Shown in pieces: positions 18,573-43,405 of a stretch of DNA of 64,000 bases (position 1 is its first letter; every line of letters begins with the position of its first letter). A model generated the notes under the pieces. The model was not told the DNA's origin. It searched no databases and saw only the letters and a list, made by a program, of their open reading frames with translations. Source of the DNA: an uncultured Opitutia bacterium (GTDB taxonomy: Bacteria > Verrucomicrobiota > Verrucomicrobiia > Opitutales > Opitutaceae); assembly GCA_903902745.1 (NCBI GenBank), contig CAIUWA010000014.1, positions 62,001 to 126,000 on the forward strand, read 5' to 3'. The position numbers and the translations under genes are program-made.

Positions 18573-18587
18573 GGGGGAGGGAGGGGA

Positions 18588-23210: not shown

Positions 23211-23447
23211 ATGAATCCAGCCAGCCCTGCCGATCCTCGTCCGGTCGTCGTCCGTGCAACGCCCATCGAACTCGCCCAGTTCATCAAATTTGGCGGCCTG
23301 GCCGAGAGCGGCGGCGCCGCGAAGCAGGCAATCAGCCAGGGGCGCGTGCTTGTCAACGGCGTGGCGGAGACGCGCAAGGGCCGGAAGCTCGTCGTCGGCG
23401 ACCAGGTGGCGTTCGGGGGCCAAACCCTGGTGGTGGCTTCCCAGTAG
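23211..23447 (+). CDS. S4 domain RNA-binding protein
   Basis: A 78-residue protein made almost wholly of one S4 domain: LAQFIKFGGLAESGGAAKQA then ISQGRVLVNG and RKGRKLVVGDQV. This matches the small YbcJ/YaaA-type S4 proteins that bind structured RNA. The ATG immediately follows the C/T-rich arm of repeat B3. Divergent from the DTW gene. Confidence 0.88.
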   Translation: MNPASPADPRPVVVRATPIELAQFIKFGGLAESGGAAKQAISQGRVLVNGVAETRKGRKLVVGDQVAFGGQTLVVASQ

Positions 23448-23532
23448 GGGCGATTTCGGCGGAAGCTTCCAGTTGCACTTGCGGGGCAGTCCTCGCACTT
23501 TCTCCGGTTCGGGCCGTCAGTGCGCCCGAACC

Positions 23533-24642: not shown

Positions 24643-24695
24643 TGTGGCAAAAGCCGCTCCCGCATTCTGCGCCGCGGCGCATCGCCGATTTTAGC

Positions 24696-26516
24696 TCAGG
24701 GTTTTAGCTTGGCGCGCAGGAACTTGAGGACGCCGGCGTGCCGGATGTAGCGATGCCAGACAAAGACGAGGTCGAACAACAGGGTTGCCAGCCACCAGAG
24801 GTAAAGAAACGCGGCGATGGCAATCAGCACGGGCCAGAGCGAACCGTGCTCCTGAGGCAGACGGGCCTGGAGAATGGCGGTGGCCAGCAGGGTCGCGCCG
24901 GTCAGCCAGATCATCTGTTTCAGCCCGCTGAGTCCTTCATGCTGCGGTGGACCCAGTTTCAACCAGCTGCGCCAGCCGCGTAAATTCACGATGAGGATGA
25001 TGCCGACCAGGGCGGCGCTGCCGAACAGCACGCCCAGGCCCGGAGACAGTTTGTGCGGCAGCGTCTCCAGCCACGCCAGCTCGCCCGTCTGCACAGCCCG
25101 CACCGCCGGATCCACCAGCCAAAAGATGAATGCAGAAATCGCATAGACCGCCGCACCCGTGAAAAACCAGAACGCCCCCTTCGTCAGCCGCGTCAGTCGC
25201 AGCCAGACGGTCGTGCCGGCCAGCAGGCCGCCCAGGGCGAGGACGTTGGGCAGCAGGTATTCCTGCGTTTGAGCCGCGTTGGGGTGAAGAAAGTCCCCGA
25301 CATTCTTGTAGAGGATATAAACACCGAGGAAAATAATCAGCAGCGGCAGGAGATATCCGGCGACATAACTGACCAAGCGGGGCCCCAGCAGGTTGGGCGG
25401 ACCCTTCGCGAGTTTCTTCTGCTCCGGCTCGGTGGGCGCGGGCGACGGCGTGACGACCTTGCGGATGAAATGACCGAACACCTCCGAATCATTCCAGTAA
25501 TCCACATGCGCCTTCCCCGGCAGGTAATAGCGGCTGAAGGCAAAGTCATCCGCCTTGTCGAAGGCAAAGACCCGGTTGTATCCCGTCCGCTCCAGCCAGT
25601 CCCACGCGGTGTCCAGCTCGAAGCCGACGGGATCGCCGTAGTCGGCATAGTTGACCCAGCGGATCCGCGGCTGGCCAGCCGCGGGCAGGAAAGTCGGCCG
25701 GTGAAATTTCTCGAACAAGCCGGGCCACAGGATGAGATGCTTGTCGATGGGCGACCCGATGGTCATGAACCCGCGCACCCGGCTGATCCAGGGATGGCGG
25801 GCGGGATCGTCGGCCGCCTCGAGCAAGGCCAGCCAGGAAACGACCGTGCCCTCGCTGTGGGTCACGACGTGGATTTCGGCGGTGGGGTACGTCGCCTCAA
25901 CCGCCTGCAGGACCTGGTGGAAGCGCCCGACCACCTCCGCCCGGATCGGGTTGAAATCGGCCATCAGCTGCACGTCGCCGAGAAAGGAATCGAGCACGGC
26001 CTTGAGGTTGAAATCGAAGAGCCCTGTTTTCCGGGCGAGGAAAAGCAGGGCCTCGATCACCGTGATGGCCTCGATGATTTCCTCCAGTACCATCCGGATG
26101 CGGCGGTAATCAATGGCCGGGTCGTCGGGATTTTTCCGGGCGGCCATGACACGCACGCGATTCACCACCGAGCGTGCCCAGGCCTTGGTTTCCTGCAGGG
26201 TATAACCTTCATTCGAAATCCGGCGGGCGATATCGGCCCAGTGGACTTCCGCGAAGCCCATTTCTCCGGTCAAGCCCGCGCGAACGGGCGGATCGGTCAG
26301 GACCAAGGCTGGCAGCTTGTGCTCGAGCGTCCCGTACAGCGCACCCAGCGGCACCATGCCCGGATACCCAAAGTGGTCGCAAAAACGGACCACCGTCGAA
26401 AGAGCCGTCTCGTTGCGCACCTGGTCGCCGATGCCATGGACGGTGACGATGATCTTCATCTTTTTCTCCGGTGGGAGTCCGGGCGAGACGACGGGGATCG
26501 TTGACGGGGTTGTCAT
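24696..26516 (-). CDS. hydrolase-like N-terminal domain fused to a multi-pass membrane domain
   Basis: A 606-residue protein. The first 350 residues resemble an alpha/beta hydrolase: IIVTVHGIGD at 22-31 (oxyanion region), and VVTHSEGTVVSW with Ser221 as probable nucleophile (GxSxG variant H-S-E-G). From about residue 390 there are around five transmembrane helices with short loops, ending in a basic tail. I do not know a named family for this fusion. A membrane lipase or esterase is possible. Translation could also start at ATG 26459, just before the hydrolase domain. It is convergent with the PRMT-like gene. Confidence 0.7.
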   Translation of the reverse strand: MTTPSTIPVVSPGLPPEKKMKIIVTVHGIGDQVRNETALSTVVRFCDHFGYPGMVPLGALYGTLEHKLPALVLTDPPVRAGLTGEMGFAEVHWADIARRISNEGYTLQETKAWARSVVNRVRVMAARKNPDDPAIDYRRIRMVLEEIIEAITVIEALLFLARKTGLFDFNLKAVLDSFLGDVQLMADFNPIRAEVVGRFHQVLQAVEATYPTAEIHVVTHSEGTVVSWLALLEAADDPARHPWISRVRGFMTIGSPIDKHLILWPGLFEKFHRPTFLPAAGQPRIRWVNYADYGDPVGFELDTAWDWLERTGYNRVFAFDKADDFAFSRYYLPGKAHVDYWNDSEVFGHFIRKVVTPSPAPTEPEQKKLAKGPPNLLGPRLVSYVAGYLLPLLIIFLGVYILYKNVGDFLHPNAAQTQEYLLPNVLALGGLLAGTTVWLRLTRLTKGAFWFFTGAAVYAISAFIFWLVDPAVRAVQTGELAWLETLPHKLSPGLGVLFGSAALVGIILIVNLRGWRSWLKLGPPQHEGLSGLKQMIWLTGATLLATAILQARLPQEHGSLWPVLIAIAAFLYLWWLATLLFDLVFVWHRYIRHAGVLKFLRAKLKP

Positions 26517-26680
26517 GACTTATCGGCTGGGGGCTTCAGCAGGCTGGCTTCACCGGAGGGTGAGCGGGATGCGCAAAACTTTACGGGACGGGTCTCAGCG
26601 TCAAAGCACAACTCATGCTGGCAGCCGGCCCAAATGCTTTAGGGTTCCAATGCGGGGGACGCGGCTTCATCGACTGGGTC

Positions 26681-27916
26681 ATGTCGTTTTCGTCCCTTGG
26701 CCTGTCCGAGCCGCTGATCCGCGCCGTCACGGAGCGGAATTATCCGGCGGCCACGCCGATTCAGGCCGCCGCCATTCCGGCGGTGTTGCGCGGAAACGAT
26801 GTCTGGGCCTCGGCGCAGACGGGTTCGGGCAAAACCGCCGCCTTCGCGCTGCCGATCCTGCAAAGGCTGTCCACCAGCCGACGGGAATCACCCCGGCCGG
26901 TCCGCGCGCTGGTTTTGGCGCCGACGCGCGAACTTGCGGCGCAGATCGGGGAATCATTCCGGGCTTATGGGCGGCATCTACCCGCGCCGCCTAAGATCGC
27001 CGTTGTTTTTGGCGGCGTTTCGATCAACCCGCAGATGATGGAGCTGCGCGGGGGCGCCGATATCGTGGTGGCCACGCCGGGCCGATTACTGGACTTGGTC
27101 GAGCGCAATGCCCTATGGCTTGCCGCCATTTCAACCCTGGTGCTCGATGAGGCCGACCGCCTGTTCGCACTCGGCTTTGCGGATGAACTCGCACGCGTCA
27201 TCGCACTGCTCCCGGCCCGCCGCCAAAACCTGCTTTTCTCCGCCACGTTCCCGCCGGCCGTGCAGGCGCTTGCGGAAAACCTGCTGCGCAATCCCGTCCG
27301 GATCGATGTGCCGGTCGTTGCCGCTCTCGCGCCTGTCATCCTGCAGCGGGCGATCGAGGTCGATCCCCCGCGGCGGACGCAGCTGCTGCGCCATTTGATT
27401 CAGGAGCACCACTGGACCCGCGTCCTGGTTTTTGTCGCGACCAAGTACGCCACCGAGCATGTCGCGGATAAGCTGCGTCGCGCCGGACTCGCGGCCACCG
27501 CGCTCCACGGTGAACTCAGTCAGGGCGCGCGCACGCAGGCGCTGGCGGACTTCAAGGCGTCCCGGGTGCAGGTGCTTGTCGCCACCGATGTGGCCGCCCG
27601 TGGCCTGGATATCGCGCAGCTGCCGGTAGTGGTGAACTACGATCTCCCGCGTTCCGCGGTGGACCACCTGCACCGCATCGGCCGGACCGGTCGAGCAGGG
27701 GAGAGCGGCGTCGCCGTCAGTTTCATCAGTGCGGGCACCGCGGCGCACTTCCGCCTGATTGAAAAACGCCACCGCCTCAGCCTGCCCCGCGAGCAGATCG
27801 CCGGCTTCGAGCCCGTCGAACTTGCCGTGCCGCCGCCCTTGTCGACCGGCGGGGTGAAGGGGAGGCGAAAGAGCAAGAAGGACAAGCTGCGAGAGGCGGC
27901 GCAGGAAAAGAGGTAG
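26681..27916 (+). CDS. rhlE: DEAD-box ATP-dependent RNA helicase, RhlE type
   Basis: A 411-residue helicase with the full motif set in order: Q motif region (FSSLGLSEPLIRAV, TPIQAAAIP), motif I AQTGSGKT, Ia PTRELA, Ib TPGRLLD, II DEAD, III SATFP, V ATDVAARGLD and VI HRIGRTGRAG. A short basic tail (GRRKSKKDK) follows, as in RhlE proteins. It unwinds RNA in ribosome assembly or decay. ATG 26681 starts at the family N terminus. Its stop codon is part of a family C repeat. Confidence 0.93.
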   Translation: MSFSSLGLSEPLIRAVTERNYPAATPIQAAAIPAVLRGNDVWASAQTGSGKTAAFALPILQRLSTSRRESPRPVRALVLAPTRELAAQIGESFRAYGRHLPAPPKIAVVFGGVSINPQMMELRGGADIVVATPGRLLDLVERNALWLAAISTLVLDEADRLFALGFADELARVIALLPARRQNLLFSATFPPAVQALAENLLRNPVRIDVPVVAALAPVILQRAIEVDPPRRTQLLRHLIQEHHWTRVLVFVATKYATEHVADKLRRAGLAATALHGELSQGARTQALADFKASRVQVLVATDVAARGLDIAQLPVVVNYDLPRSAVDHLHRIGRTGRAGESGVAVSFISAGTAAHFRLIEKRHRLSLPREQIAGFEPVELAVPPPLSTGGVKGRRKSKKDKLREAAQEKR

Positions 27917-27993
27917 GGCGAGGCGTCCCGACCGAGCCGCGGTCTTGGACCGTGAGCCTGCCGAACGGCTCACCCGGAGGGTTCGCCCTACCT
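27911..27993. repeat. family C inverted repeat, unit C4
   Basis: AGGTAGGGCGAGGCGTCCCG is balanced by GAGGGTTCGCCCTACCT at the end, with inner CCGAACGGCTCACCC. The helicase stop TAG is part of the left arm. Confidence 0.8.
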
Positions 27994-28019
27994 AAAACCA
28001 ACACCCCAGAACCTTCCCC

Positions 28020-28832
28020 GTGCCCCTCATTGACCGTCTTTTTTCCATCGGAGCCGTCCGCAAGGCGGTCTGGCGGATCTGGTATCCCTTTCTCACCCGA
28101 CGCCTGCGGGATGAGGAGGTACTCTTCCTGAACTATGCCTTCGAGACGGAGCCGCCGCTGGGCCTGCCACTTGCTCCAGCCGACGAGCCCAATCGCGGGT
28201 GCATCCAGCTTTATCATCATGTCGCCACTCAGGCGGATCTCGGAGGAAAGAAAATCCTCGAAGTAAGCTGCGGGCATGGCGGCGGTGCATCATGGCTCAC
28301 GCGTACCCTGCGTCCGGCGAACTACACCGGCCTCGATTTGAATGCCACCGGCATCCGGTTCTGCCGGCGCCGCCATCAGGTGGACGGGCTTTCCTTCGTG
28401 CAGGGCGATGCCGAGAACCTGCCGTTTGCGGACCAGGCTTTCGACGCTGTGCTCAACGTCGAGGCCTCGCATTGCTATCCCCGGTTTCCGCGATTCCTGA
28501 CCGAGGTGGCGCGCGTCCTCCGGCCGGGCGGAAATTTTCTGTATGCCGACTTTCGCTTCCGGGACAATCCCGTGAGCGACACCCTGGGTGAATGGGAACG
28601 TGCGCTGGCAGCAGCGCCCCTGCGGCTGCTGCAAACGCGGGTGATCAACGCCGAGGTGCGGCGGGGCATGGATCTGAATTCGGAGCGCTCCCAGGAGCTG
28701 ATCGTCCGCCACCTGCCCGGCTTCATGCACTCGCTCGGCCGGGACTTTGCCGGCATCCGGGACTCGCGCGTCTACAATGCGCTGAGGGTCGGGGAGATTT
28801 CCTACCGGTCCTATTGCTTCGTCAAAAAATAA
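28020..28832 (+). CDS. SAM-dependent methyltransferase, class I
   Basis: A 270-residue enzyme with motif [16 protein letters not shown] (79-93), then [11 protein letters not shown] and [20 protein letters not shown]. The layout resembles lipid or polyketide methyltransferases such as the phthiotriolone type, with a hydrophobic N-terminal segment ([12 protein letters not shown]). It starts with GTG after a C-rich leader. The substrate is unknown. Composite F/B repeats begin 8 bases after the stop. Confidence 0.82.
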
Positions 28833-28840
28833 GAAGGCAC

Positions 28841-28878
28841 CCGCCGTCGCTCTGCGAGCTATAGCGTGGCAGGGAAGG
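28841..28878. repeat. family F direct repeat, copy 1
   Basis: CCGCCGTCGCTCTGCGAGCT then ATAGCGTGGCAGGGAAGG resembles the second copy at 30475. Both copies follow a stop codon at once and lead into a family B arm. Confidence 0.7.
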
Positions 28879-28879
28879 A

Positions 28880-29053
28880 TGAGTTAAGAAGTTAGGATTT
28901 AGCACCCAACGGGAGGCGTCCGCATTTCCAGCAGGACTTCGCGTCCTGAGTAATCCGCCGGCTTGGTGGTCACCGTTTCTCTTTTCCGGCGTCTGGCTGC
29001 CGAGTCCGCAATTTTCTGGTTTCAACCTTCCGACTTCTTCCTTCTTACTTTCA
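28880..29053. repeat. family B inverted repeat, unit B4
   Basis: The left arm contains GAGTTAAGAAGTTAGGATTT. The right arm (29026-29051) contains CCGACTTCTTCCTTCTTACT. Arms are degenerate, with about 125 bases between them. Confidence 0.55.
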
Positions 29054-29070
29054 GTCCCACCCCATACCCC

Positions 29071-30474
29071 ATGACCTCCCGATTCCTATCCCCCCGCGCG
29101 CTTGTCGCGTTTTGCTGCCTCGCCCTTGCTCCGCTCGTCTCGGCCGCGCAGTCCATGCCGGCCACGTCGTTCAAATTCCAGTTCGGCGCCACCAAGGCCG
29201 CGCCGGGCTACACCCTGGTTCCGACCACTGCCGTCTATTCGCGGGAAGCCGGCTATGGTTTCGAGCCCGGTACAGCCGTGACCGCCGTCACCCGGGACAC
29301 CGGCGACGCACTGCAGCGTGGCGCCGTCACCGCCACCGGGATTTTGACTTTTTCAGTCAAGGTACCGGAGGGTAACTACCGCGTCACGGTCACCCTGGGC
29401 GACCCCACCGCGGCGTCCACGGTCACGGTCAAGGCCGAGGCCCGCCGCCTGATGGTGGAGCATCTCAGCACGGCTGCGGGTCAGTTCGCCACCCGCACGT
29501 TCATGGTCAATATCCGCAGTCCGCGGATTTCCACCGGTGGCGAGGTCATTCTCGACAGCCGCGAGATGAATCTGGAGACCCATGAGGCGATCAGCCGCGG
29601 GTGGGACGACAAGCTTACCCTCGCGTTCAGCGACACGCATCCGGCGGTGGCGGCGATTGAAATCAAGAAGGTGGATGATGTTACCACCTTGTTCATTCTG
29701 GGTGATTCGACTGTCACCGATCAGGGTGGCGGCGGTGGCAGCTGGGGCCAGATGGCCCCGCGCTGGTTCAAGCCCGAGGTCGTGGTCGCGAACCACGCCG
29801 AGTCCGGCGAGACGCTCAAGGGCTTCCTGAAGGAACGGCGCTGGGAGAAGGTGCTCGATTCACTCAAGGCCGGTGACTACGTCCTGATCGAATTCGGCAC
29901 CAACGACTCCAAGAGCACCGGCCCGCAGAACATGTATCCCAACCAGGATTTCGCCGAAACCTTCGCGCCGGCGAATACGACCTACAAGGAGCTCCTCAAG
30001 CGGTTCGCCTCCGATGTACAGAAGAAGGGTGGCTTTCCCATCATCGCCTCCCCCTCGGCCCGCCGGCAGGACAACCTAAGTGGACCGGGAACGCTGTCGG
30101 CCTATGCCATCGCCGCGATGGAAGTGGCCAAGGAGATTGGCGTCCCCGGTATCGACCTCAATTACATGGGCCGCCAGATCAACACCGCCCTCGGTGACGA
30201 GGCCCCGAAGCAATTCGGTGACCAGACCCACCATGTTGACTATGGTGCCTACCTGCAGTCGAAGTGCATCGTGCTCGGGATGAAGCAAAACAATCTCCCG
30301 ATCGCGAAGTTCATCGTGGACGACTTCGGCGCCTTCGACCCGACGCATCCCCAGCCGACACCGTCCACCTTCCTGGTCCCGGCCGACCCCCGCCCAGCGG
30401 GTGGTGGCGGACGTGGCGCCCGCGCGGGCGGTCCCGGTGGCGCGCCTGGAGCCGCGGTTGATGGTAAGAAGTAA
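29071..30474 (+). CDS. rhamnogalacturonan acetylesterase-like SGNH hydrolase (CE12 type)
   Basis: A 467-residue secreted esterase that would remove acetyl groups from rhamnogalacturonan. After a signal peptide (about 1-25) an N-terminal beta domain (about 28-200) begins FKFQFGATKAAPGYTLV, as in two-domain YesT-like enzymes. The SGNH part has block I FILGDSTVTDQ (Ser213), block III EFGTNDSK near 276 and block V DQTHHVDYG near 385. The last 30 residues are Gly/Ala/Pro-rich. ATG 29071 gives a clean signal peptide. The gene is framed by family F and B repeats. Confidence 0.88.
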   Translation: MTSRFLSPRALVAFCCLALAPLVSAAQSMPATSFKFQFGATKAAPGYTLVPTTAVYSREAGYGFEPGTAVTAVTRDTGDALQRGAVTATGILTFSVKVPEGNYRVTVTLGDPTAASTVTVKAEARRLMVEHLSTAAGQFATRTFMVNIRSPRISTGGEVILDSREMNLETHEAISRGWDDKLTLAFSDTHPAVAAIEIKKVDDVTTLFILGDSTVTDQGGGGGSWGQMAPRWFKPEVVVANHAESGETLKGFLKERRWEKVLDSLKAGDYVLIEFGTNDSKSTGPQNMYPNQDFAETFAPANTTYKELLKRFASDVQKKGGFPIIASPSARRQDNLSGPGTLSAYAIAAMEVAKEIGVPGIDLNYMGRQINTALGDEAPKQFGDQTHHVDYGAYLQSKCIVLGMKQNNLPIAKFIVDDFGAFDPTHPQPTPSTFLVPADPRPAGGGGRGARAGGPGGAPGAAVDGKK

Positions 30475-30510
30475 CCCGCCTTCGCTGCGAGCTATCGCGA
30501 GGCAAGGAAG
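30475..30510. repeat. family F direct repeat, copy 2
   Basis: CCCGCCTTCGCTGCGAGCTA then TCGCGAGGCAAGGAAG matches copy 1 at 28841 with a few differences. It starts immediately after the esterase stop codon. Confidence 0.7.
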
Positions 30511-30616
30511 GAAGATTTAAGAAGGTTCGTGTGGCTCGCGCATGGGCACGAGCGATGAGGAGATTTGGCCGCACCGGTCGGAGTTTCTTCCTCCCTAATT
30601 CATACTTCTTACTTTC
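30505..30616. repeat. family B inverted repeat, unit B5
   Basis: The left arm (30505-30526) reads AGGAAGGAAGATTTAAGAAG. The right arm (30585-30616) contains CTAATTCATACTTCTTACTT. Confidence 0.6.
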
Positions 30617-30648
30617 CACCCGTCCCCGGGCTGCTTCATTCTTGCCGG

Positions 30649-32304
30649 ATGGACAGCACCCCCAGCCCGGACCGCGCTCCCGAGCCTTCCGCCGACCTCC
30701 TGCGCCGGCAGGCCGAGCTCAACGAAATTGGGATCGCCCTCTCGCAGGAGAAGAATCTCGACCGGCTGCTGGAGAGCATCCTGCTGGCGGCGAAAAAAAT
30801 CACGAATGCCGACGGGGGCACGATCTACCGGCGTCATGCTGCCAGCCGGAACACGCTTAACTTTGAGATCATCCGCACCGACTCGCTCGGCATTGCGATG
30901 GGCGGAACCACCGGCACCCAGGTCCCTTTCGCGCCGGTGCAGCTCCGGGATGATGCCGGGCAGGAGAACACCTCGATGGTCGTGGCCTACTCGGTGCTGA
31001 AGGATTGCACCGTGGCGATCACCGACGCCTATCAGGAGGAAGGTTTCGATTTTTCCGGCACGAAGGCCTTCGACCAGCGCACGGGCTACCGCTCGCAGTC
31101 GTTTCTCACGGTGCCGATGAAGGACCACGAGGGCGAGATCATCGGCGTGCTGCAGTTGATCAACGCGAAGGATCGCACCACCGGGAAGATCGTGGCGTTC
31201 AGCGAGACCGACGAGCGCCTGGCCCAGTCGCTGGCCTCGCAGGCCGCCGTGGCGCTGACGAACCGCCTGCTGATCATCCAGCTGGAAAACCTGTTTGAGT
31301 CTTTCATCCAGCTGCTCAACCAGGCGATTGACGAAAAATCCGCGTACACCGGCGGTCACTGTCACCGTGTTCCCATCCTGACGATGCTGCTGGCCGAGGC
31401 CGCCAACCGCACCTCGGCGGGTCCTCTGGCGGGTTGGGAGATGACGGACAAGGACCGCTACGAGCTCAAGATTGCCGCGCTCCTGCACGACTGCGGCAAG
31501 GTCACCACGCCCGTTCACATCGTGGACAAGGCCACCAAGCTGCAGACCATCTATGACCGGATCGACCTGCTCGACACCCGCTTTGAGGTGATCAAGCGCG
31601 ATGCCGAGATCGAATTGCTGCGGGCCAAGGCCGCCGCCGCACCAGCCGAGGCGAAGGCGCTCGAGGAGGCCCACCGCGAGCGGCTGAGAAAAATCGAGGA
31701 CGACCGCTGGTTCCTGCGCATCTGCAACGTCGGCAGCGAGGCGATGCAACCGGGTGCGGCCGAGCGGGTGCATGCGATCGCGCGCAAATACCGCTGGAAA
31801 AACTGGCGGGGCGAGGAGGTTGATTTCCTGAGCGAAAACGAGGTCGAGAACCTCACGATTTCCTTCGGCACGCTGACGGCGGCCGAGCGGCGGGTCATCA
31901 ACCGCCACGTCGAGGTCTCGATCCGCATGCTCGAGGCGCTGCCCTGGCCGCGCCATCTCCGGAACGTGCCGGAGTTTGCCGGCGGGCATCACGAGCGCAT
32001 GGACGGCAAGGGTTATCCGCGCGGCCTCAAGCGCGACGAGATGTCGGTGCAGGCGCGCATCATGGGCATCGCGGACATCTTCGAGGCGCTCACGGCGAAG
32101 GACCGGCCCTACAAGGCGGGGAAGACGCTGACGGAATCGCTGAACATCCTCGGCCTGATGAAGCTGAACGGCCACATCGATCCCGATCTCTTCGACATCT
32201 TCATCCGGGAGCGCGTGTACGAGAACTACGCGAGGGAATTCATGGATCCCAAGCAGGTTGACGCCGTGGACGTGAAGCAGATCCCGGGATATTCCGGAGA
32301 TTGA
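30649..32304 (+). CDS. GAF and HD-GYP domain protein, probable cyclic-di-GMP phosphodiesterase
   Basis: A 551-residue cytoplasmic signalling protein. A GAF sensor domain spans about 25-205. The HD-GYP domain starts with HCHRVPIL near 237 and LLHDCGK near 278, then continues at HHERMDGKGYPRGLKRDEM near 446. HD-GYP proteins hydrolyse cyclic di-GMP using a metal centre formed by these residues. About 110 residues, including a predicted coiled coil (RAKAAAAPAEAKALEEAHRE), separate the HD and GYP parts, longer than usual. ATG 30649 starts directly before the first helix. Confidence 0.9.
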   Translation: MDSTPSPDRAPEPSADLLRRQAELNEIGIALSQEKNLDRLLESILLAAKKITNADGGTIYRRHAASRNTLNFEIIRTDSLGIAMGGTTGTQVPFAPVQLRDDAGQENTSMVVAYSVLKDCTVAITDAYQEEGFDFSGTKAFDQRTGYRSQSFLTVPMKDHEGEIIGVLQLINAKDRTTGKIVAFSETDERLAQSLASQAAVALTNRLLIIQLENLFESFIQLLNQAIDEKSAYTGGHCHRVPILTMLLAEAANRTSAGPLAGWEMTDKDRYELKIAALLHDCGKVTTPVHIVDKATKLQTIYDRIDLLDTRFEVIKRDAEIELLRAKAAAAPAEAKALEEAHRERLRKIEDDRWFLRICNVGSEAMQPGAAERVHAIARKYRWKNWRGEEVDFLSENEVENLTISFGTLTAAERRVINRHVEVSIRMLEALPWPRHLRNVPEFAGGHHERMDGKGYPRGLKRDEMSVQARIMGIADIFEALTAKDRPYKAGKTLTESLNILGLMKLNGHIDPDLFDIFIRERVYENYAREFMDPKQVDAVDVKQIPGYSGD

Positions 32305-32322
32305 GCTGTGGGGGTTGCTCGA

Positions 32323-32378
32323 ACGGTAGGCCCGGTCGATGACCTGGCCGTCAAGCCACCTCAGCGAGGTGGCCTACA
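32323..32378. repeat. family C-like inverted repeat, unit C7
   Basis: GGTAGGCCCGGTCGATGACC on the left and CACCTCAGCGAGGTGGCCTA on the right, between the HD-GYP gene and the convergent 92-residue gene. The right part matches the left part of C8 at 39769 in inverted form. Confidence 0.6.
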
Positions 32379-32380
32379 AC

Positions 32381-32659
32381 TCAATCCGTTGGATCCGCAG
32401 GGGAGGCAGGAGGATTCGCCGGATCCAATTTTTTTCCACCAGTCTGCTTGTTCGGAATATGCGCCGCCCGGCGCAGGACCTCGCTCTTGGAGGTGCCGAG
32501 ACGGGAAGCGATCACATTAAGGCGGACTGCTTCGGCCTGGGTGAGTGTGGTCAGGCGGTCGGTACCATCGCGGTCGACCCAGTTCACATGGTGCAGCTTC
32601 TGGCGCGACCCCTTGACCAGGTCGCGCAGGAAGGCGTGTTCGGCATCGGGCAAGTCCAT
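32381..32659 (-). CDS. small hypothetical protein with helix-turn-helix-like segment
   Basis: A 92-residue soluble protein that I do not recognise. It contains RLTTLTQAEAVRLNVIASRL followed by GTSKSEVLRRAAHI, which suggests a helical DNA-binding unit (helix-turn-helix or ribbon-helix-helix type). The C-terminal tail is Pro-rich. A family B repeat begins 19 bases upstream of its start; that repeat is shared with the divergent SDR gene. Codon use is like the neighbours. Confidence 0.6.
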   Translation of the reverse strand: MDLPDAEHAFLRDLVKGSRQKLHHVNWVDRDGTDRLTTLTQAEAVRLNVIASRLGTSKSEVLRRAAHIPNKQTGGKKLDPANPPASPADPTD

Positions 32660-32677
32660 GCAGGCAGGATAGGGGAA

Positions 32678-32779
32678 GGAAGAAGTAAGAAGGAAGAATT
32701 AAGAATACGGGGAATCCCCGGGGCCCGGCTTGCCCCATGGTCCTACGGCTTTTCTTAATTCTTCCTTCTTACTTCTTCC
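32678..32779. repeat. family B inverted repeat, unit B6 (perfect 28-base arms)
   Basis: The left arm (32678-32705) starts GGAAGAAGTAAGAAGGAAGA and ends ATTAAGAA. The right arm (32752-32779) is its exact reverse complement, 28 of 28. The spacer is 46 bases. It is the best-preserved copy of family B in the window. Confidence 0.95.
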
Positions 32780-32797
32780 TTTTCCATTCTGGTCGCC

Positions 32798-33556
32798 ATG
32801 GACACCCCTGCAAAAGTCGCCATTGTCACCGGAGCCGGATCAGGCATTGGGCGCGCCACCGCGCAGACCCTGCTCCGGGCCGGATATTCCGTCGTGCTCG
32901 CTGGACGGCGGCAGGATGCCCTCGAGGGCACGGCCCGGGAATCCGGTGCCCCCGCCGCCCGGTTCTTGGTCGTCCCCACCGACATCACGGATCCCGTCAC
33001 TGTGGCCCGCCTCTTTGAACGAACCCGCGAGACCTTCGGTCGGCTCGATGTGCTCTTCAACAATGCCGGGGTGAGCCCGCCCGGCGTGCTACTTGAGGAC
33101 GTGCCTTACGAGCAGTGGAAGCTGATCATCGACACGAATCTCACCGGGCCTTTCCTCTGCACCCAGCAGGCTTTCCGGCTGATGAAAAGCCAGCAACCGC
33201 GCGGCGGGCGCATCATCAACAACGGCTCCATTTCGGCCCACGTGCCGCGGCCCAACTCCGCGCCCTACTCCTGTGCCAAGCACGCCATCACCGGCCTCAC
33301 GAAATCGGCGTCGCTCGACGGGCGGCGCTTCGACATCGCCTGCGGGCAGATCGACATCGGCAACGCCGACACGCCGATGGCGCAAAAGATGAAAAAGGGT
33401 GTGCCGCAGGCCAGTGGCGCGATCGCCGTGGAACCGACGATTTCGGCCCAGCATGTGGCGGACGCCGTGCTCTACATGGCGAATCTCCCGCTCGACGCCA
33501 ACGTGCCCTCCATCACCGTCATGGCGACCCAGATGCCATACGCGGGCCGAGGCTAG
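32798..33556 (+). CDS. short-chain dehydrogenase/reductase
   Basis: A 252-residue classical SDR with NAD(P) motif [10 protein letters not shown] (residues 11-20), NNAGVSPPG near 86, the serine of [10 protein letters not shown] and the catalytic [14 protein letters not shown] near 157. It sits between a GAF/HD-GYP gene and an alpha-L-rhamnosidase gene, so a sugar-derived substrate (uronate or rhamnose metabolism) is plausible but unproven. Family B repeats flank it on both sides. Confidence 0.85.
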
Positions 33557-33565
33557 GAATGGGAC

Positions 33566-33697
33566 GAAGTGAGAAGGAAGAATTAAGAAATGCGGAAGAC
33601 GGAATTCTCGCGAGCGAGGTTCGTGAACCATCACCTTTTCGCCTCGGGACCGCGCGTGAGTCCTTCTGATCCTTCTTAATTCTTCCTTCCTGCTTCC
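33566..33697. repeat. family B inverted repeat, unit B7
   Basis: The left arm (33566-33589) is GAAGTGAGAAGGAAGAATTA then AGAA. The right arm (33671-33697) is CCTTCTTAATTCTTCCTTCC then TGCTTCC. The right arm reaches the stop codon of the rhamnosidase gene. Confidence 0.85.
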
Positions 33698-36426
33698 TAC
33701 TTGGTCATCGCGGGTGCGCCGAAGTGGTAGACGCCCGCTGGCACGGTGAAGGTTAGCCGGCCGTTGAGGGCGCGGGCGTTGGTCGCCTCGCGCAAATCGG
33801 CCAGGGGCCGGCCGGACTCGGTTACACCGTTGTCTGAAGCGGAAGGGATGGCGATCTGCGCCTGCGTGTTGGGCGGGACGGTGACGTCGAGCTCCAGCCG
33901 CCGGTTGACGAAGTGCCACTCCGAAACCGCGAGGCCATAGGGCGTCTCGAGGCTGGCCTTCGCCTGCGTCAGGCCGCCACCCGGGGTCGGCGCGACTTCA
34001 AATCGTTTCCAGCCCGCGCCGGTGGCATCGGGCTTGAGTCCCGCGACGGTGTCGTAGAGCCAGCCGATCACAGAGCCGTAGGCGTAGTGGTTGAATGAGT
34101 TCATGCCTTCCGGATTGAACCCCTGTTCCGGCGTCCAGCTGTCCCAGCGCTCCCAGATCGTGGTCGCGCCGTTCTTCACGCTGAACAGCCAGCCGGGATA
34201 GGATTCCTGCAACAGCACCGTGTACGCGAGGTCGGCGTGACCGGTCTCGCTCAACACGGGGGTCACCAGTGGCGTCCCGAGGAATCCGGTCGCGAGATGG
34301 TTGTTCTTTTCCGCGAACTTCCGCAGGAGTTGCGCGGTGGATTTTTCGCGCAGATTGTCCGGCATCAGGTTGAAGCCGAGCGCGAGCAGGTAGGCGGTCT
34401 GTTCGTCGCTGGTGACGCGGCCGTCATCGGTGATGAACTCGCGGCGAAAGGCCTCGCGGATCTGCGCGAACAACGCCCGGTCGCGCTCAGCCGCCGTCGT
34501 GCGGCCCAGTTCCGCGGCGATGCGGCCGGCAATATCGGTCACGTGCGCATAGTACGCCGTGGCGATGAGCAGATACGGTGTTGGGGCCTCGGCGGGCTTG
34601 AAACCCGGTGCGAGCCAGTCGCCATAGCTGCGGGTGCTGCGGCGCAGGCCATCGGGGTAATCGCGCGCCTGGGCCTCGACCCAGCGCTGGATCGTGTCGA
34701 AGTTCTCATCGAGCAGCCGGCGGTCGCCCGTGTGCAGCCAGGTTACATAGGGAATGATCACCGCGGCATCGCCCCAGCCGGTGCTGCCGTAGCGGAGGCC
34801 GATGTCCGGCGCGACGTCCGCGAAGCCGCTGACGCCGCCTGGCTCATCGCGATAGCTGTCGCGCAACGCGGCGAGCCATTGGCGGTAGAACGCGCCGCTC
34901 GCAAAATTGTAGTTGGCAGTGGGGGAGAAGACCTGCGCGTCGCCGGTCCAGCCCAGGCGCTCGTCGCGCTGCGGGCAGTCCGTCGGCACCTCGAGGAAAT
35001 TGCCCTTCTGGCTCCAGAGCGTGTTGGCGTAGAGTTTGTTCAGCAGCGGGTTTGAGCATTCAAAAAACCCGATGCGGGGCAGGTCCGTATGGACGACGAT
35101 GCCCGTGACCGCATCGTCCGCGGGCGCGGCGACGCCACTCAGCTCCACGTAGCGGAAGCCGAAAAACGTGAACTGCGGCTCCCACGTCTCGACGCCTCCG
35201 CCGCGGGCGATGTAGTCCGCCGTGGCGTGCGCGGTGCGGAGGTTGGCCGTGTAGATCCCGCCGTCGGGACCGAGCATTTCGGCGAAGCGCAGCGTAATCT
35301 CCTGGCCCGCGGGCGCGCTCGCCTTGAGCCGCGCCCAGCCCACCATGTTCTGCCCGAGATCATAGAGAAACACGCCCGGTCGGACCTCGCGCCGCGAGAC
35401 CGGCCGCACTTCCTCGGTCCGCCGCACCGGCGGCGACAGCCGCGCGGTGAGCGCGACAGCGGGAATGCCCTGCATCTGTGCGGGGTGCCAGTTCCACGTC
35501 TGCCTCGCGCCGGTCAATCCGCTCCAGCCCGGATCGTCGCGGCGGGCATCGAACGTTTCCCCATAATAAATTGCCTGTGCAGTGATCGGTCCTTCCGCCC
35601 ATTGCGTGTCCTTGCCGGTGGCAACGACTGTGACCTTGCCCGCGGCATCGGTCAGCTCAAGCCACGCCGACACCAGTGGCTGCGAGCCCGCCTGCGTCCC
35701 GCGCATCATCGTGCTGCTGTACCAGCCGTCGCCCAGGATGAGCCCGAGCGCATTGGGGCCGGCCTGCAGCTGTGGCGTCACGTCGTAGGCGACATAAAAA
35801 ACGCGTTTCCGATAATCCGGCCAGCCGGGGAGGAAAAGGTCCTCGGTGACCTTGTGGCCGTTGATCCACGGCTCGACGAGACCGAAGGCCGACAGGTAGA
35901 GGCGCGCCTTCACCGGTGCCGAGTCGATCGTGAATTCCTGGCGGAAATAGCGTGCGCGGGGCGCCGTGCCTCGCGCCACGGTTCCGCCGTCACCCACCCA
36001 TGCCGCCGGCCAGGCGCTGCCGAGCAGGCCGGTCTCAAACGTTGCCGGCGCGCTCCAGCCGCTGTCGCGCTCCCGCTCATCCCACACGCGCACCTGCCAC
36101 GCATAGCGCGTCTTCGCGGCCGCGGCGAACTGGGGCAGGCTTACCCACTGCGATTGGTCGGACGCGGTCCGGGGCAACTCCAGCGCGGCGCCCGCAGGCT
36201 GGCCGTCCGCTGCGAGCGCCGTGACGCGCAGTTGGAACGCCGTCTGGCGAGCGCCGCGCGTGGTGGAGTCGAGCCGCCAGGAAAAGCGCGGGGCCGTCGA
36301 CTCAATGAGTGTGGGCTCGACGAGGCCTTCACAGGTGAGATGGGAGACCGTGAAGGCGGTTTCCGCTGCCGGCAGCGGGAGTGCCATGATCGAAAAAGCC
36401 AGCAGGGAGGTTAGCCGGGGGTACAT
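33697..36426 (-). CDS. secreted alpha-L-rhamnosidase, GH78
   Basis: A 909-residue glycoside hydrolase that removes terminal alpha-L-rhamnose, as from rhamnogalacturonan side chains. A signal peptide (about 1-22) is followed by beta domains (CEGLVEPTLIESTAPRFSW, PWINGHKV). The (alpha/alpha)6 barrel has the signature DCPQRDERLGWTGDAQVF near 475-492 with catalytic acidic residues, then TTIWERWDSW near 752. A C-terminal beta domain ends the protein. ATG 36426 begins a clean signal peptide; the 60 residues upstream are not family-like. Confidence 0.94.
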   Translation of the reverse strand: MYPRLTSLLAFSIMALPLPAAETAFTVSHLTCEGLVEPTLIESTAPRFSWRLDSTTRGARQTAFQLRVTALAADGQPAGAALELPRTASDQSQWVSLPQFAAAAKTRYAWQVRVWDERERDSGWSAPATFETGLLGSAWPAAWVGDGGTVARGTAPRARYFRQEFTIDSAPVKARLYLSAFGLVEPWINGHKVTEDLFLPGWPDYRKRVFYVAYDVTPQLQAGPNALGLILGDGWYSSTMMRGTQAGSQPLVSAWLELTDAAGKVTVVATGKDTQWAEGPITAQAIYYGETFDARRDDPGWSGLTGARQTWNWHPAQMQGIPAVALTARLSPPVRRTEEVRPVSRREVRPGVFLYDLGQNMVGWARLKASAPAGQEITLRFAEMLGPDGGIYTANLRTAHATADYIARGGGVETWEPQFTFFGFRYVELSGVAAPADDAVTGIVVHTDLPRIGFFECSNPLLNKLYANTLWSQKGNFLEVPTDCPQRDERLGWTGDAQVFSPTANYNFASGAFYRQWLAALRDSYRDEPGGVSGFADVAPDIGLRYGSTGWGDAAVIIPYVTWLHTGDRRLLDENFDTIQRWVEAQARDYPDGLRRSTRSYGDWLAPGFKPAEAPTPYLLIATAYYAHVTDIAGRIAAELGRTTAAERDRALFAQIREAFRREFITDDGRVTSDEQTAYLLALGFNLMPDNLREKSTAQLLRKFAEKNNHLATGFLGTPLVTPVLSETGHADLAYTVLLQESYPGWLFSVKNGATTIWERWDSWTPEQGFNPEGMNSFNHYAYGSVIGWLYDTVAGLKPDATGAGWKRFEVAPTPGGGLTQAKASLETPYGLAVSEWHFVNRRLELDVTVPPNTQAQIAIPSASDNGVTESGRPLADLREATNARALNGRLTFTVPAGVYHFGAPAMTK

Positions 36427-36662
36427 GGGCAAGGATGTGAGGCAACCCCGCGGCGACCGCAAAGGCAATTTAGCGCAAAGCTCAGGCAAGTAATCCCTGT
36501 TGTTCCAGAGCTGGGGCGCAACAAGGACTGAGAACACCATCTCCTGGCATGCGGTCTCTGGCCACTGATCATCCGACGATCCGATCATCAGGTGCTTCTC
36601 TGCCACCTTCCGGCTGGTGCTACGGTGCGGCCATGTTTATCTGATGGTGTATCCCCGTCCCC

Positions 36663-38093
36663 ATGCGCGCTTTCCTTGGATGCTTCTTCGCTGTCGTGCT
36701 CGTGGCCGCCGCGCAGGGCGCGGCGGATTTCAAGGGCCGGATCCTGCCCAAGGTCGCCTGCGAGGCGGATGCAACGCAGACCTACGCGATCTATGTGCCG
36801 TCGGCCTACAGCCCCGAAAAAAAGTGGCCGGTGATCTTCTGCTTTGATCCCGGGGCTCGGGGGACCGCCCCGGTCGAGCGGTTGCAGTCGGCCGCGGAAA
36901 AATACGGCTACATCGTCGCGGGTTCGCTGACCTCGCGCAACGGCCCGGTCGCGGCGAATATCGCCGCGATGCAGGCAATGGTGAACGATGTGAATGCGCA
37001 CCTCGCGATCGATCCCAACCGCCTTTACGCCGCGGGCCTGTCGGGCGGGGCGCGGGTCGCGACGCAAATGGCTCTCGGGGGCCTCGCGAAGGGCGTGATT
37101 GCCTGCAGCGCGGGATTTCCGGACCCGGAGGAGATTCCGGGGCGGGTGCCGTTTGTCTTTTTCGGCACCGCGGGAACGGAGGATTTCAACTACGGTGAAA
37201 TGAAGCGGCTCGACAGCGACCTGACCGACCGCAAGGCGGCCCACCGCATCGTCGTGTTCAACGGGACGCACGAGTGGGCGCCGGTGGCGTTGCTGGCGGA
37301 GGCGGTCGAGTGGCTGGACCTGCAGGCGATGCGCACGGGGGCACGCCCGCGGGACGAGGCCCTGATCCAAGCGGCGCTACAAACGCGGCTGGCCGCGGTA
37401 CCGGCGGCGCCGGGTCCGGAGCGCTGGCTCGCGTTGCGGGCGCTCACCGCGGATTTGCAGGGCCTTACCGACACCCGTGCGTATGAACAGCAGGTCAAGG
37501 AATTGGGCGCGGCCCGCAGCGTGAAGGACTGGCAGAAGAACGAACTCGCGCTGGGGCGGCGCGAGGAAGCGCAGCGGGAGAAGCTCGAGGACCTCGCGGT
37601 GGGCGGCTCGGCCGCGGCGCAGCGAAAGTTCGCGGCTGAACTGCGGCAGGCGGCGGATGCTGCCGAGGACACGGGCGAGCGGCGGCTGGCGCGGCGCGTG
37701 ATCACGGGCTTCCTGATGAGCGGTCGCGACGCGACCCGCGGACTCTTTGAACAGAAGGACTACGCAACCGCGGCAGACCGCCTAGAACTGGAAGTCGCGC
37801 TCCGACCCGGCCAGCCGCGGACCTGGTACGACCTCGCGCGGGCGCACGCGCTTGACGGCAGCAAACCCCGCGCGCTCGAGGCGCTGAAGCAGGCCGTCGC
37901 CGCCGGCTTCCACGACACGCCGCGGGCGGAAGCCGATCCGGCGTTCGCGAAGCTGGTCGGGGATCCGGCCTTTCAGGAGCTGCTCGTTGCGATGAAAACC
38001 ACCGCCGCCATCGCGCCACCTGAGACCGATTTGGATGATGGGCGGCCGTTGCGGGGTGGGCGGGGGCAGCAAGAAGGCAGAAGGAAGAACTAG
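36663..38093 (+). CDS. secreted alpha/beta hydrolase with helical C-terminal part
   Basis: A 476-residue protein with a signal peptide (about 1-20). The first 230 residues resemble dienelactone hydrolase or PHB depolymerase-like esterases: nucleophile Ser126 in AAGLSGGARVA, and a histidine near 202 in FNGTHEWAP. The remainder (about 240-470) is helical, TPR-like near the end (YDLARAHALDGSKPRALEAL). The last eight residues (QQEGRRKN) are encoded by a family B arm. It may release esters from plant polysaccharide, judging from its neighbours. Confidence 0.72.
   Translation: MRAFLGCFFAVVLVAAAQGAADFKGRILPKVACEADATQTYAIYVPSAYSPEKKWPVIFCFDPGARGTAPVERLQSAAEKYGYIVAGSLTSRNGPVAANIAAMQAMVNDVNAHLAIDPNRLYAAGLSGGARVATQMALGGLAKGVIACSAGFPDPEEIPGRVPFVFFGTAGTEDFNYGEMKRLDSDLTDRKAAHRIVVFNGTHEWAPVALLAEAVEWLDLQAMRTGARPRDEALIQAALQTRLAAVPAAPGPERWLALRALTADLQGLTDTRAYEQQVKELGAARSVKDWQKNELALGRREEAQREKLEDLAVGGSAAAQRKFAAELRQAADAAEDTGERRLARRVITGFLMSGRDATRGLFEQKDYATAADRLELEVALRPGQPRTWYDLARAHALDGSKPRALEALKQAVAAGFHDTPRAEADPAFAKLVGDPAFQELLVAMKTTAAIAPPETDLDDGRPLRGGRGQQEGRRKN
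38070..38093. repeat. family B half unit B9 in coding sequence
   Basis: AGCAAGAAGGCAGAAGGAAG then AACT resembles family B left arms and forms the end and stop of the hydrolase gene. No right arm was found. Confidence 0.5.
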
Positions 38094-38128
38094 GCCGGAG
38101 TCCGGCATCAGGCCTCCGGCCTTCCACG

Positions 38129-39622
38129 TTACCGCACGGCCACCGCCGCGAAGCGCTCCGGATGGGCGGCCTCGCCCTTGAAACCGGGGTAAGTCAGGCC
38201 GGTGACATCATGCGCCTCGAGCGCATGGGTGAAGTAGTCGGGCCGGTTGGCACCCCAGGAAATCTGGCAGCGCTGCAGGGCCACGTTGTCCGCGAACCGC
38301 ACGTGGATGCCGGGATTGCCGTGCTCCTCGATGGGCGGATAGGCCGACGTCGTGGGGCGGTTGTCCCACAGGCCGCCCCGATACTTTGTCTCGCGGTTGA
38401 GGGTGACCGCCACGTTGTCGAAGGAGACATCCTGGATGCGGCTCTCCTTGCAGCCGCTGATCCGCACACTGTTTTCGGAATGGCCGGTGACGTTTTCGAC
38501 CCGCACGTTGCGGATCTGACCGATTTTACCGCCGGGAGTGCGGGGCACTGCGGTGAAGGAGACCGCCTCGCCGCGACCCCACCACGGATCCGAGTGATAG
38601 CGCGACTTGAAGGTGATGTCGCGAAAGACGATGTCGTGGATATCTCCCTCGTCCCGCAACTGGATGTTGCAGCCGCGGCAGCTGCTGCGGATCTCGCAGC
38701 GCTCGAAGCGCACGTGGTGAATCGGGCGGGTGGTCTCGGTGCCGACCTTCAGGCCGGAATCCTGGGTCTCAATCACGCAGTCGTGCACATGGATGTTGGC
38801 GGTCTCGCCATAGGAGGCAAAGGCCCGCGCGGCCTTCACCACGATCGCATCATCGCCGCAGACCACATGGCAGTTCCGGATTTCGACGTCGCGACTGTGG
38901 TCGGGGTCGATGCCGTCGCAGTTGGGCACGTCGAGCTGGTTCTGGATCTTGACGCCGTCAACGAGCACCCGGTCGCAGCCCACCATGTGGAGCGTGCGGA
39001 TGGGCGCCTGATGGAAAGTGATGTCGCGGACCTCCAGATCGCGGCAACTGACAAGAAAGGCGAGGGTGGGCCGGAAATCAACGGGCCGCCACCATTCGTC
39101 CTTCTCGTCGAATTGGGTCATGAAATCGGGGGAGTGGCCATCGATGCGTCCGGTGCCTGTCAGGCTCAGGCCCACGGCATCGCGGGCCGTGAGCACCGCA
39201 CCAGCTCGCTCGGCCGGTGCCGGCTCCACGCCCGGGGTCCGGTTTTGAGCCGCGCGCACCGCCGCCAGCACCGCGGCGCCCGCCGGATAATCCTCCGGTC
39301 GGCTGCTGATGCGGAGCGTGGCATCATCGGCGAGGTGAAAGTCGATGCCGCTCCGGAGCTCGAGGGTACCGACCAGAAAGGACCGGCCACCAGGCACGAT
39401 CACCCGGCCGCCGACCGCCGCCGCGGCATCGATCGCCCGCTGGATGGCGACGGTGTCCAGCGTGGTGCCGTCGCCCGCCGCGCCGAAATCGCCGACATTG
39501 AATTCGCGCCGGCCGGCCCGGCCCAGCGTCTTGCAGGCCGGTCCCAGCCCGCAAGCGACGACGGCGGTCACACGAGTAAGGAGGCCGAGAGCTTGGCGGC
39601 GGGAAAAATCAAGCTGGGGCAT
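38129..39622 (-). CDS. exported GH28-family glycoside hydrolase
   Basis: A 497-residue beta-helix protein. The N terminus (SRRQALGLLTRV) looks like a Tat signal, with a lipobox-like cysteine near residue 34 (LGPACKTLG). The GH28 entry motif DFGAAGDGTTLDTVAIQRAI follows. Acidic active-site positions appear in NCDGIDPDHS and VCGDDAIVVKA. TQDSGLKVGTE replaces the usual Gly-His-Gly motif. It probably cleaves galacturonan or rhamnogalacturonan. Convergent with the alpha/beta hydrolase gene. Confidence 0.85.
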   Translation of the reverse strand: MPQLDFSRRQALGLLTRVTAVVACGLGPACKTLGRAGRREFNVGDFGAAGDGTTLDTVAIQRAIDAAAAVGGRVIVPGGRSFLVGTLELRSGIDFHLADDATLRISSRPEDYPAGAAVLAAVRAAQNRTPGVEPAPAERAGAVLTARDAVGLSLTGTGRIDGHSPDFMTQFDEKDEWWRPVDFRPTLAFLVSCRDLEVRDITFHQAPIRTLHMVGCDRVLVDGVKIQNQLDVPNCDGIDPDHSRDVEIRNCHVVCGDDAIVVKAARAFASYGETANIHVHDCVIETQDSGLKVGTETTRPIHHVRFERCEIRSSCRGCNIQLRDEGDIHDIVFRDITFKSRYHSDPWWGRGEAVSFTAVPRTPGGKIGQIRNVRVENVTGHSENSVRISGCKESRIQDVSFDNVAVTLNRETKYRGGLWDNRPTTSAYPPIEEHGNPGIHVRFADNVALQRCQISWGANRPDYFTHALEAHDVTGLTYPGFKGEAAHPERFAAVAVR

Positions 39623-39768
39623 GGGGCAGGCGTGTGGCGGTTAAGACAACCAGCGCGAAATGCGCGCTGAGGGGATAGGCAAAAGTCCACCGATCGACGC
39701 CCGCTTTGCAACGCGAACTTGTTCAGCGTAGCCAACGGTGGGTTTAAACCCGCCCTTTTGGGCCTCGG

Positions 39769-39820
39769 TTGTAGGCCACCTCGCTGAGGTCGCGCCAGGT
39801 CAGCGAACTGGTCCTACAGG
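39769..39820. repeat. family C-like inverted repeat, unit C8
   Basis: TTGTAGGCCACCTCGCTGAG on the left and a GGTCCTACAGG right end. The left part is the reverse complement of part of C7 at 32352-32378. Confidence 0.6.
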
Positions 39821-39900
39821 TCGGCATACTTTAGAGCCAGTCCCGCCGTACCATAGGTGCAGTCTTGCGGCCGTCTGCAAACGGTTCCAAACCCATCATC

Positions 39901-40341
39901 ATGAAACCCACCCCGTTCATTGCCCTGCTCGCCCTCGGACTTGTCTCCCGTCTCACCGCCATTGATGCGCCTCCGACTGAGGTGGTGATGGTCGATCACG
40001 CGAAGATGGCCGACGCCTTTGCCAAGGGCCTGCCGCTCCTGCTCAACAGCAGCTACAAAATCTCGGCCGGCCGCCGCGTCATGCCCGGCATTGTCGAGGT
40101 TCACGGACGGGACACCGACATCCTCATCGTATCCGAGGGCACCGCCACGTTCGTCACGGGCGGCACCGTGGTGGAGCCGAAGGAAACCGGGGCCGACGAG
40201 ATTCGGGGCACAGCGATCAAGGGCGGCGTGCCGCACCATCTGTCCAAGGGCGACATGATCGTGATTCCACCGAACACCCCGCACTGGTTCAGCGAAGTGA
40301 ACGGGACCTTTCTCTATTACGTCATCAAGGTGACCAAGTAA
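39901..40341 (+). CDS. secreted cupin-domain protein
   Basis: A 146-residue protein with a signal peptide (about 1-19), then one cupin barrel. Motif 1 is seen as VEVHGRDTDILIVSEGTATF and motif 2 as PPNTPHWFSEVNGT, with a probable metal histidine in each. Periplasmic location is predicted. Cupins this small serve many roles; binding or isomerising a sugar acid would suit the region but is not shown. ATG 39901 is preferred over an ATG 12 codons upstream. Confidence 0.82.
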   Translation: MKPTPFIALLALGLVSRLTAIDAPPTEVVMVDHAKMADAFAKGLPLLLNSSYKISAGRRVMPGIVEVHGRDTDILIVSEGTATFVTGGTVVEPKETGADEIRGTAIKGGVPHHLSKGDMIVIPPNTPHWFSEVNGTFLYYVIKVTK

Positions 40342-40400
40342 GGTTCTGCTTCCAGCCTAGCAGGATTTCCGCGTGCTGCAGCGTCTTTGAGGGATAATCC

Positions 40401-42017: not shown

Positions 42018-42024
42018 CGGTCGA

Positions 42025-42214: not shown

Positions 42215-42256
42215 CCTCGCATGGAACCACGCCGGGGAAAAGCGTTCATTCAAGCC

Positions 42257-43210: not shown

Positions 43211-43217
43211 TCGCGCG

Positions 43218-43346: not shown

Positions 43347-43405
43347 TCCGTCACCGCTTAAGAACGCGTTTTGACTTTAACGGCCAACTGGCAGACTGGT
43401 TTTTT

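Follow-up and report, generated by a model that had tools for sequence, protein, structure and literature searches.

Heptad and octad words at gene edges, and the inverted repeats they form, in an Opitutaceae bacterium

Purine-rich words of seven or eight letters that run from gene edges into the spacers are a widespread kind of repeat in an uncultured Opitutaceae bacterium. The word can differ between close relatives, while its direction stays constant. Here, we analyze a window of 64,000 nucleotides (the whole stretch of DNA under study) together with further parts of the same genome and of its relatives. The family of inverted repeats that is most visible in the window, family B, is one word (GAAGnAA) among at least five heptad or octad families with a common geometry. 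Relative to the heptads described for Xanthomonas and Nostoc, what differs is that several words coexist, that there are units of 7 and of 8, and that one word has no G-tract. The period, the polarity, the position at the edges, the sharing of a word within a spacer, the lack of detectable arm covariation, and the different words at orthologous spacers are all direct observations. As to their origin, we give about an even chance to an intergenic kind of heptad inverted repeat with fast turnover, which would be laid down by a process acting on the DNA and not by selection on pairing.

Family B in the window and in the genome

The first-pass annotation had described two arms of 28 nt that are exact reverse complements. 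They are, and the perfect stretch is 2 nt longer, with 30 nt in each arm (32676-32705 and 32752-32781); a repeat search extends the inverted repeat to 52 nt at 83% identity. The left arm has its purines on the plus strand and, with heptads counted from 32675, reads GAAGGAA, GAAGTAA, GAAGGAA, GAATTAA, and a final GAA. The right arm has its purine strand on minus, and the loop of 46 nt between them (32706-32751) has no detected similarity to other loops. Both arms match the family-B consensus, and hence the 30-mer is perfect. The entire spacer (32660-32797), which separates divergent genes at 32400-32659 (minus) and 32798-33556 (plus), folds as RNA with -79.9 kcal/mol (z -9.0). The open reading frame at 32400-32659 was added by hand and is supported by matches in two congeners (G001 and G002), and elsewhere two called reading frames were merged as 23211-24642, which is out of frame; for these two genes only the spacer-side edges served.

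Degenerate copies had been noted at six other sites, and they are seen at 18588, 23027-23210, 28880-29053, 30500-30616, 33566-33697, and 42025-42214. The copy at 18588-18718, in spacer 18573-18706, has a right arm that extends into the end of the next gene, and its RNA fold is not better than shuffled. In the divergent spacer at 23031-23204, family-B arms lie outside and a CGCGAAG hairpin (23073-23153) inside. A CCGCC-type palindrome splits the left arm of the copies at 28833-29051 and 30463-30616. Between convergent genes (33566-33696), the arm cores lie at distances of 9 and 0 nt from the ends of the two genes, and in the divergent spacer at 42025-42214 the cores are 13 nt from either predicted start codon; the left arm of this last copy is found in G001 too. 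The half copy reported near 38070 is there as well, at 38066-38093 on the plus strand, overlapping the stop codon of gene 36663-38093.

Copies also occur in the rest of the genome, the first thing that the annotation had asked to be checked. The family-B 24-mer (with one free position) allowing up to 3 mismatches gives 12 forward and 8 reverse matches in the own genome (G000), some of them overlapping, versus 2 forward and 1 reverse for the reversed-pattern control. A position-matrix scan covered 464 kb of G000, that is, the window plus 20 added stretches (L042, L046, L047, and L056 below are G000 stretches outside the window). The matrix was trained on matches that it then recovers; at a threshold of 13 it reports 17 purine (R) and 17 pyrimidine (Y) matches, and one local shuffle reports none (2 at a threshold of 10). 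Search-selected stretches make up 5/20 of the own set, 6/20 of the relatives' set, and 6/20 of that of G318, a genome of another genus; because 5 of the 20 added own stretches contain family-B matches, the density of family B is a biased estimate, and the other words are unaffected.

Adjacent family-B matches are ordered RY in 9 cases, YR in 1, and RR or YY in none, which bears out the purine left arm and complementary right arm of the earlier description. Strong cores mostly begin no more than about 33 nt from a CDS edge, with R matches at left edges and Y matches at right ones; exceptions include an interior pair in L042:1344-1778 and weak matches. Family B does exist as a dispersed R...Y family with conserved arms, but it is one word of a class of many words and not a unit of its own.

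Words, period, and geometry

In 269 own-genome spacers of 60 nt or more, together 57.8 kb, tandem arrays number 37 at lag 7, where shuffled sequences give 0, and 22 at lag 8, where they give 0.4. At lags 4-6 and 9-13 there are 0 to 2 spacer arrays; the 17 at lag 14 and the 7 at lag 15 reflect multiples of the two periods. Coding sequence has 14 arrays at lag 7 and none at lag 8. A slightly looser cut yields 93 spacer arrays, which sort by word into families T (20), C (20), D (14), B (12), and E (11), with families assigned from hand-written word lists and the 16 "other" arrays left out of the family counts. Position 3 of the B unit GAAGnAA is A in 47/47 units, position 6 of the T unit ARTTnGn is G in 81/82, position 3 of the D unit CGGAnGn is G in 55/55, and position 3 of the C unit CTGAMAnn is G in 71/72; the form of the E unit, CGCnGAGr, was judged by eye. 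Over the entire own genome, matches to the T word number 64 forward and 57 reverse, and those to the C word 13 and 14, with 0 in the reversed control of either.

The arrays keep to gene edges: 58 of the 93 are within 30 nt of a CDS edge, compared with 40.8 under uniform placement and a maximum of 56 in 2000 trials. Two arrays are close to both edges, which makes 60 near-edge counts: in 55, the purine strand leads away from the CDS, and in the other 5 it leads towards the CDS. Within the same 30 nt, outward-purine arrays are found at 28/255 stop edges and 27/283 start edges, and outward-pyrimidine arrays at 4 and 1, respectively. When an array is the only one of its spacer, outward purine prevails over inward purine by 28 to 4. 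The genes were called with a simple codon model, which leaves their starts uncertain. One inverted repeat in the window, of TTGGAAT type (43211-43405), has the opposite polarity, with the pyrimidine arm on the left, and is an exception to the outward-purine rule.

Shine-Dalgarno-like motifs are present just upstream of 2.1% of 285 predicted starts vs. 4.9% in a shifted window further upstream. Leaders in the own genome are rich in pyrimidines and have C at -4 to -1. Few such motifs and pyrimidine-rich leaders had made a role as translation leader attractive, but it is rejected, since arrays in G000 are about equally common at stops and at starts. Arrays occur in 41/157 codirectional, 13/63 divergent, and 9/49 convergent G000 spacers. 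In own spacers of at least 100 nt without arrays, the left half is the purine-richer one in 103 of 135; for array-free spacers of relatives, the difference between left and right purine content is small (0.495 against 0.477).

An edge array has a mate of the same family across the spacer in 30/64 cases and across the same CDS in 4/53, where chance is about 3%; on this ground, a gene cassette held between inverted repeats is rejected. This test and that of spelling between neighbors below use 24 of the 46 matrix matches, with weak, doubled, and interior ones excluded. Adjacent named arrays within one spacer are of the same family in 22 of 24 cases, and those 22 comprise 14 facing pairs, 7 in the same orientation, and 1 reversed.

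Turnover, composites, and breadth

We compared 17 orthologous spacers and scored three of them, with 88-93% protein identity on both sides, all of which carry different words in congener G002; among the remaining 14, several are without arrays or too diverged to judge. At L042:15070-15280, the own genome has CGCAGAGG-type arms and G002 has CACGGAT and TTGAAAG arms. At L042:18188-18391, the own genome has family B outside a CGCAGAG hairpin; the orthologous spacer in G002, 269 nt long, contains the CGCAGAG type plus a further inner hairpin and lacks family B, with a best matrix score of -2.3. At L047:670-1378, the left edge is CGGAGGA in the own genome and ARTTnGn in G002, and the right edge is conserved. 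By eye, the outward polarity is unchanged in all three.

Spacers on the same stretch tend to share words, with 34 same-family pairs vs. 17 expected (p 1e-4). The excess is weaker genome-wide, where three words give 32 pairs within 10 kb vs. 22.3 (highest permutation 37), a calculation that used at most 100 of the 121 T places, those among the matches listed. In spelling, the arms of neighboring spacers are no closer to each other than other arms are (p 0.82), and thus very local recent copying is not seen.

The loops had been described as unrelated, which holds in that 14 own loops from several families show 0 cross-matches. It does not hold for the inner hairpins of two family-B loops (window 23073-23153 and L042:18244-18330), which belong to another dispersed family, CGCGAAG/CGCAGAG, present at several own places. 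The element at L042:18188-18391, with B arms around a CGCAGAG hairpin, is similar to G001:C187:418-598 (69% over 192 nt), and the G001 contig orthologous to that place is C566, not C187. Two other G001 stretches (L098 and L104) match the left arm and the inner arm of this element jointly. A family-B arm together with the same CCGCC-type palindrome recurs at 28833-28898, 30468-30524, and L042:1432-1496, 83-85% identical over 59-66 nt. Such recurring composites suggest, from the sequence, that arms, and sometimes larger composites, were copied between places. On this ground, the earlier idea of a mobile unit with an exchanged spacer keeps some probability; in the own sequence searched, matches between different family-B elements span the arm or the inner hairpin, never the entire element.

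The CCGCC...GCGAGCTAT...GGC palindrome is immediately external or internal to heptad arms, at three to four places those of family B; it is also found near L046 7861 and L047 12740, and once beside a CTGAAA arm. Heptad or octad hairpins (CGCGAAG, CGCAGAG, ACACGGA) are nested in family-B loops or spacers at 23073-23153, L042 18244-18330, and L095 2096-2636.

The family-B 24-mer with up to 3 mismatches is found in 15 of 57 relatives searched, with the own genome counted; G007, G035, and G043 do not count because their reversed control was as high or higher. With up to 2 mismatches it is found in 14 of 387 Verrucomicrobiota genomes, and the reversed pattern in 17 of 387, a strict control because the reversed pattern, too, is a string of purine heptads; this count gives no support for the exact family-B word beyond the family. 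The 23-mer is found without mismatch in 13 stretches from named genomes. Verrucomicrobia or Opitutae is the label of 10 of these stretches (from 7 genomes, G001 included); the ones outside Verrucomicrobia are one Okeania, one Hymenobacter, and one Clostridia MAG. By eye, a facing arm lies within about 300 nt in 4 of 11 inspected 23-mer stretches, none of them outside Verrucomicrobia.

The geometry extends to relatives. G318, a single contig, has 25 arrays at lag 7 vs. 0 in shuffled sequence, with 19 outward-purine (13/164 stop edges and 6/174 start edges) and 3 outward-pyrimidine, and its spacers carry arrays in 1/32 divergent, 16/110 codirectional, and 4/27 convergent cases. Of 20 stretches of relatives, 18 could be used (two were too short), and they contain 26 arrays. 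Counting those no more than 30 nt from an edge, outward purine is seen in 14 and outward pyrimidine in 2, the latter both from L123. One relative has long tandem arrays in which GAAGTAA and GAAGGCA units are mixed (L135 7104, G034:C42:22124-22294), which suggests active unit expansion.

Competing explanations and described systems

How could such repeats come about? The explanation that we prefer starts from what is seen: a purine-rich unit of 7 nt (or 8 nt) is repeated in a short tandem run at one end of a spacer or at both, and its purine strand reads inwards from the CDS edge. Slippage of the unit at the DNA level would make and refresh the runs, and the arms would be copied to the opposite end of the spacer and to other spacers. 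Transcription from either side of the stronger elements would then produce an R-to-Y hairpin, a putative weak bidirectional transcript boundary, as a secondary effect. Evidence of slippage comes from the tandem runs in G034 and from overlapping matches at C11:89572-89636. We prefer writing and copying at the DNA level to a selected RNA hairpin, leader, or terminator because the polarity ignores gene direction, because the two sides of a spacer share the word and not the spelling, and because the word differs between close relatives. Several observations count against this preference. Slippage alone fails for the fixed positions of the units, which look like recognition or common descent; neighboring spacers share words but not the spelling that recent local copying would bring; the composite of B arms around a CGCAGAG hairpin at a non-orthologous congener contig fits the copying of larger units; facing arrays are only 14/22 of same-family neighbors; and the purine bias of relatives' array-free spacers is small.

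Selection on pairing, which the first-pass annotation had proposed and which compensatory changes would reveal, does not survive its check. The arms of a pair differ at 5.0 of 24 positions in 9 own pairs vs. 5.16 when permuted (p 0.36), and at 4.4 vs. 3.9 in 10 pairs of congener G001 (p 0.97); arms within a pair are no more alike than arms between pairs, and selection on pairing is therefore unsupported. A local-score pair test for families B, T, C, and D gives p-values of 0.46, 0.71, 0.12, and 0.16 (9, 4, 5, and 3 pairs). In line with this, we find it unlikely that the repeats are RNA hairpins under selection, acting as bidirectional terminators, insulators, or sequestration of start regions in read-through transcripts. 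The order R-to-Y is identical from both sides, as such a hairpin would have it, and three of five folded spacers beat every shuffle (z -9.0, -3.5, and -3.9), but the other two are no better than shuffled. The left arm is also retained where the right arm is not, at the DTW locus in G002 and at the nhaP locus in G001. The scarcity of arrays in divergent spacers of G318 would favor such a hairpin, but in G000 divergent spacers have about as many as convergent ones. Intrinsic terminators are G+C-rich hairpins followed by a T run, whereas family-B arms make long A/G stems with C/T 3′ arms; terminator-like sites in 23000-42300 number 17 vs. 14.6 (sd 3.9) in shuffles, which is no enrichment. An Rfam scan of 18000-43000 gives no known RNA family above the gathering score, and three sub-threshold matches to miRNA families fall on the hairpin.

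A non-autonomous mobile element (MITE- or REP-like, or a nested composite) with a decaying or replaced interior seems to us similarly improbable. Dispersed copies with inverted ends, some regional clustering, the similarity to a non-orthologous congener contig, and the arm-plus-palindrome composite at three own places speak for it; loops without cross-matches, and family-B elements that share an arm or an inner hairpin and not the entire element, speak against it. The copy number of REP elements is linked to a Y1 (RAYT-type) transposase. Matches to Y1 transposases number 1 in G000, 2 in G001, and 0 in G002, and do not track the copy number of family B, which may speak against mobilization by a RAYT. 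Alternatively, the words could be binding sites for a family of sequence-specific proteins, one per word, that mark gene borders on DNA or RNA. Fixed and free unit positions that recur across loci would suit such sites, and a similar GGGANTN layout appears in the passages on Xanthomonas in PMC4692102; but one genome has at least five words, and congeners with the same genes around a spacer can have different words in it, and we hold this reading to be quite improbable. A long shot, in our estimation, is a bacterial activity not recognized so far that writes DNA in a telomerase-like manner, adding purine-rich units of 7-8 nt to 3′ ends during the repair of breaks in spacers. If true, it would put the same unit on both ends, and their joining, be it direct or through filler, would produce the geometry that recurs here. 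It would also account for outward purines, the same word in different spellings, unrelated or nested loops, changing words, and several words per genome. An outward-purine, spacer-paired, edge-bound geometry is kept over several unrelated words, one of them without G-tracts; since it is constant while words differ at orthologous spacers, the question moves from what binds the sequence to the process that writes it.

The closest described case is that of the GGGAnTn heptads of Xanthomonas and Nostoc (GGGAATC or GGGANTN, and GGGGA(C/T)T; Rehm et al. 2015, PMC4692102), for which the passages compared here give the same pairing and polarity and propose G-quadruplexes. According to those passages, what they share with our repeats is a tandem 7-nt unit in intergenic sequence (here in G000 and G318), many convergent inverted pairs (for B, RY 9 and YR 1), a purine/G strand that lies close to the ORF and points away from it, and a unit with fixed and free positions. 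Going by the same text, our repeats differ in having several words per genome, units of 7 and 8, and another phylum as host. The family-B units GAAGTAA, GAAGGAA, and GAATTAA have no GGG, unlike the heptads of that account; GAAGnAA has no G-tracts, and therefore the G-quadruplex idea does not suit it. Xanthomonas heptads are there said to avoid divergent spacers, which is not clearly so in G000 (13/63).

The TAACTGA direct repeats of Beggiatoaceae, Cyanobacteria, and Bacteroidetes are, in the portions of PMC4679880 used here, also intergenic heptads near start codons, of genes mostly without Shine-Dalgarno, and sporadic across phyla; they differ in being direct (inverted in one of 170 sets), mostly in a single orientation to the start codon, and of one word. 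The intergenic heptamers that SPADE finds abundant across prokaryotes share the period of 7 and the location, and in the relevant passages (PMC6344855) the authors see no clear functional clue and give no analysis of polarity, pairing, or word. Slippage as an idea is attributed to Mrazek and colleagues where PMC4692102 and PMC4679880 cite it; it explains tandem growth and leaves out pairing, polarity, and fixed unit positions. A word search of the literature returned no papers on family-B-like repeat strings, and literature searches returned, among the matches listed, no paper on heptad inverted repeats in Verrucomicrobia.

REP palindromes (PMC3733652) are likewise dispersed and intergenic. 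Compared with them, our repeats have no fixed compact palindrome of 20-40 nt and no GTAG/CGTC tag in the consensus arm, and their arms are far apart with mostly unrelated loops. The window also has two longer dispersed repeats (27898-28008 and 39768-39835), about 50-110 nt long, of which the own genome contains many copies at about 79-95% identity. Unlike the heptad arms, these two look like palindromic REP-like elements. Another dispersed intergenic repeat is the GTAGCGGCGGTCTATGACCGCCG palindrome, found at about 11615 in L047 and about 18996 in L056.
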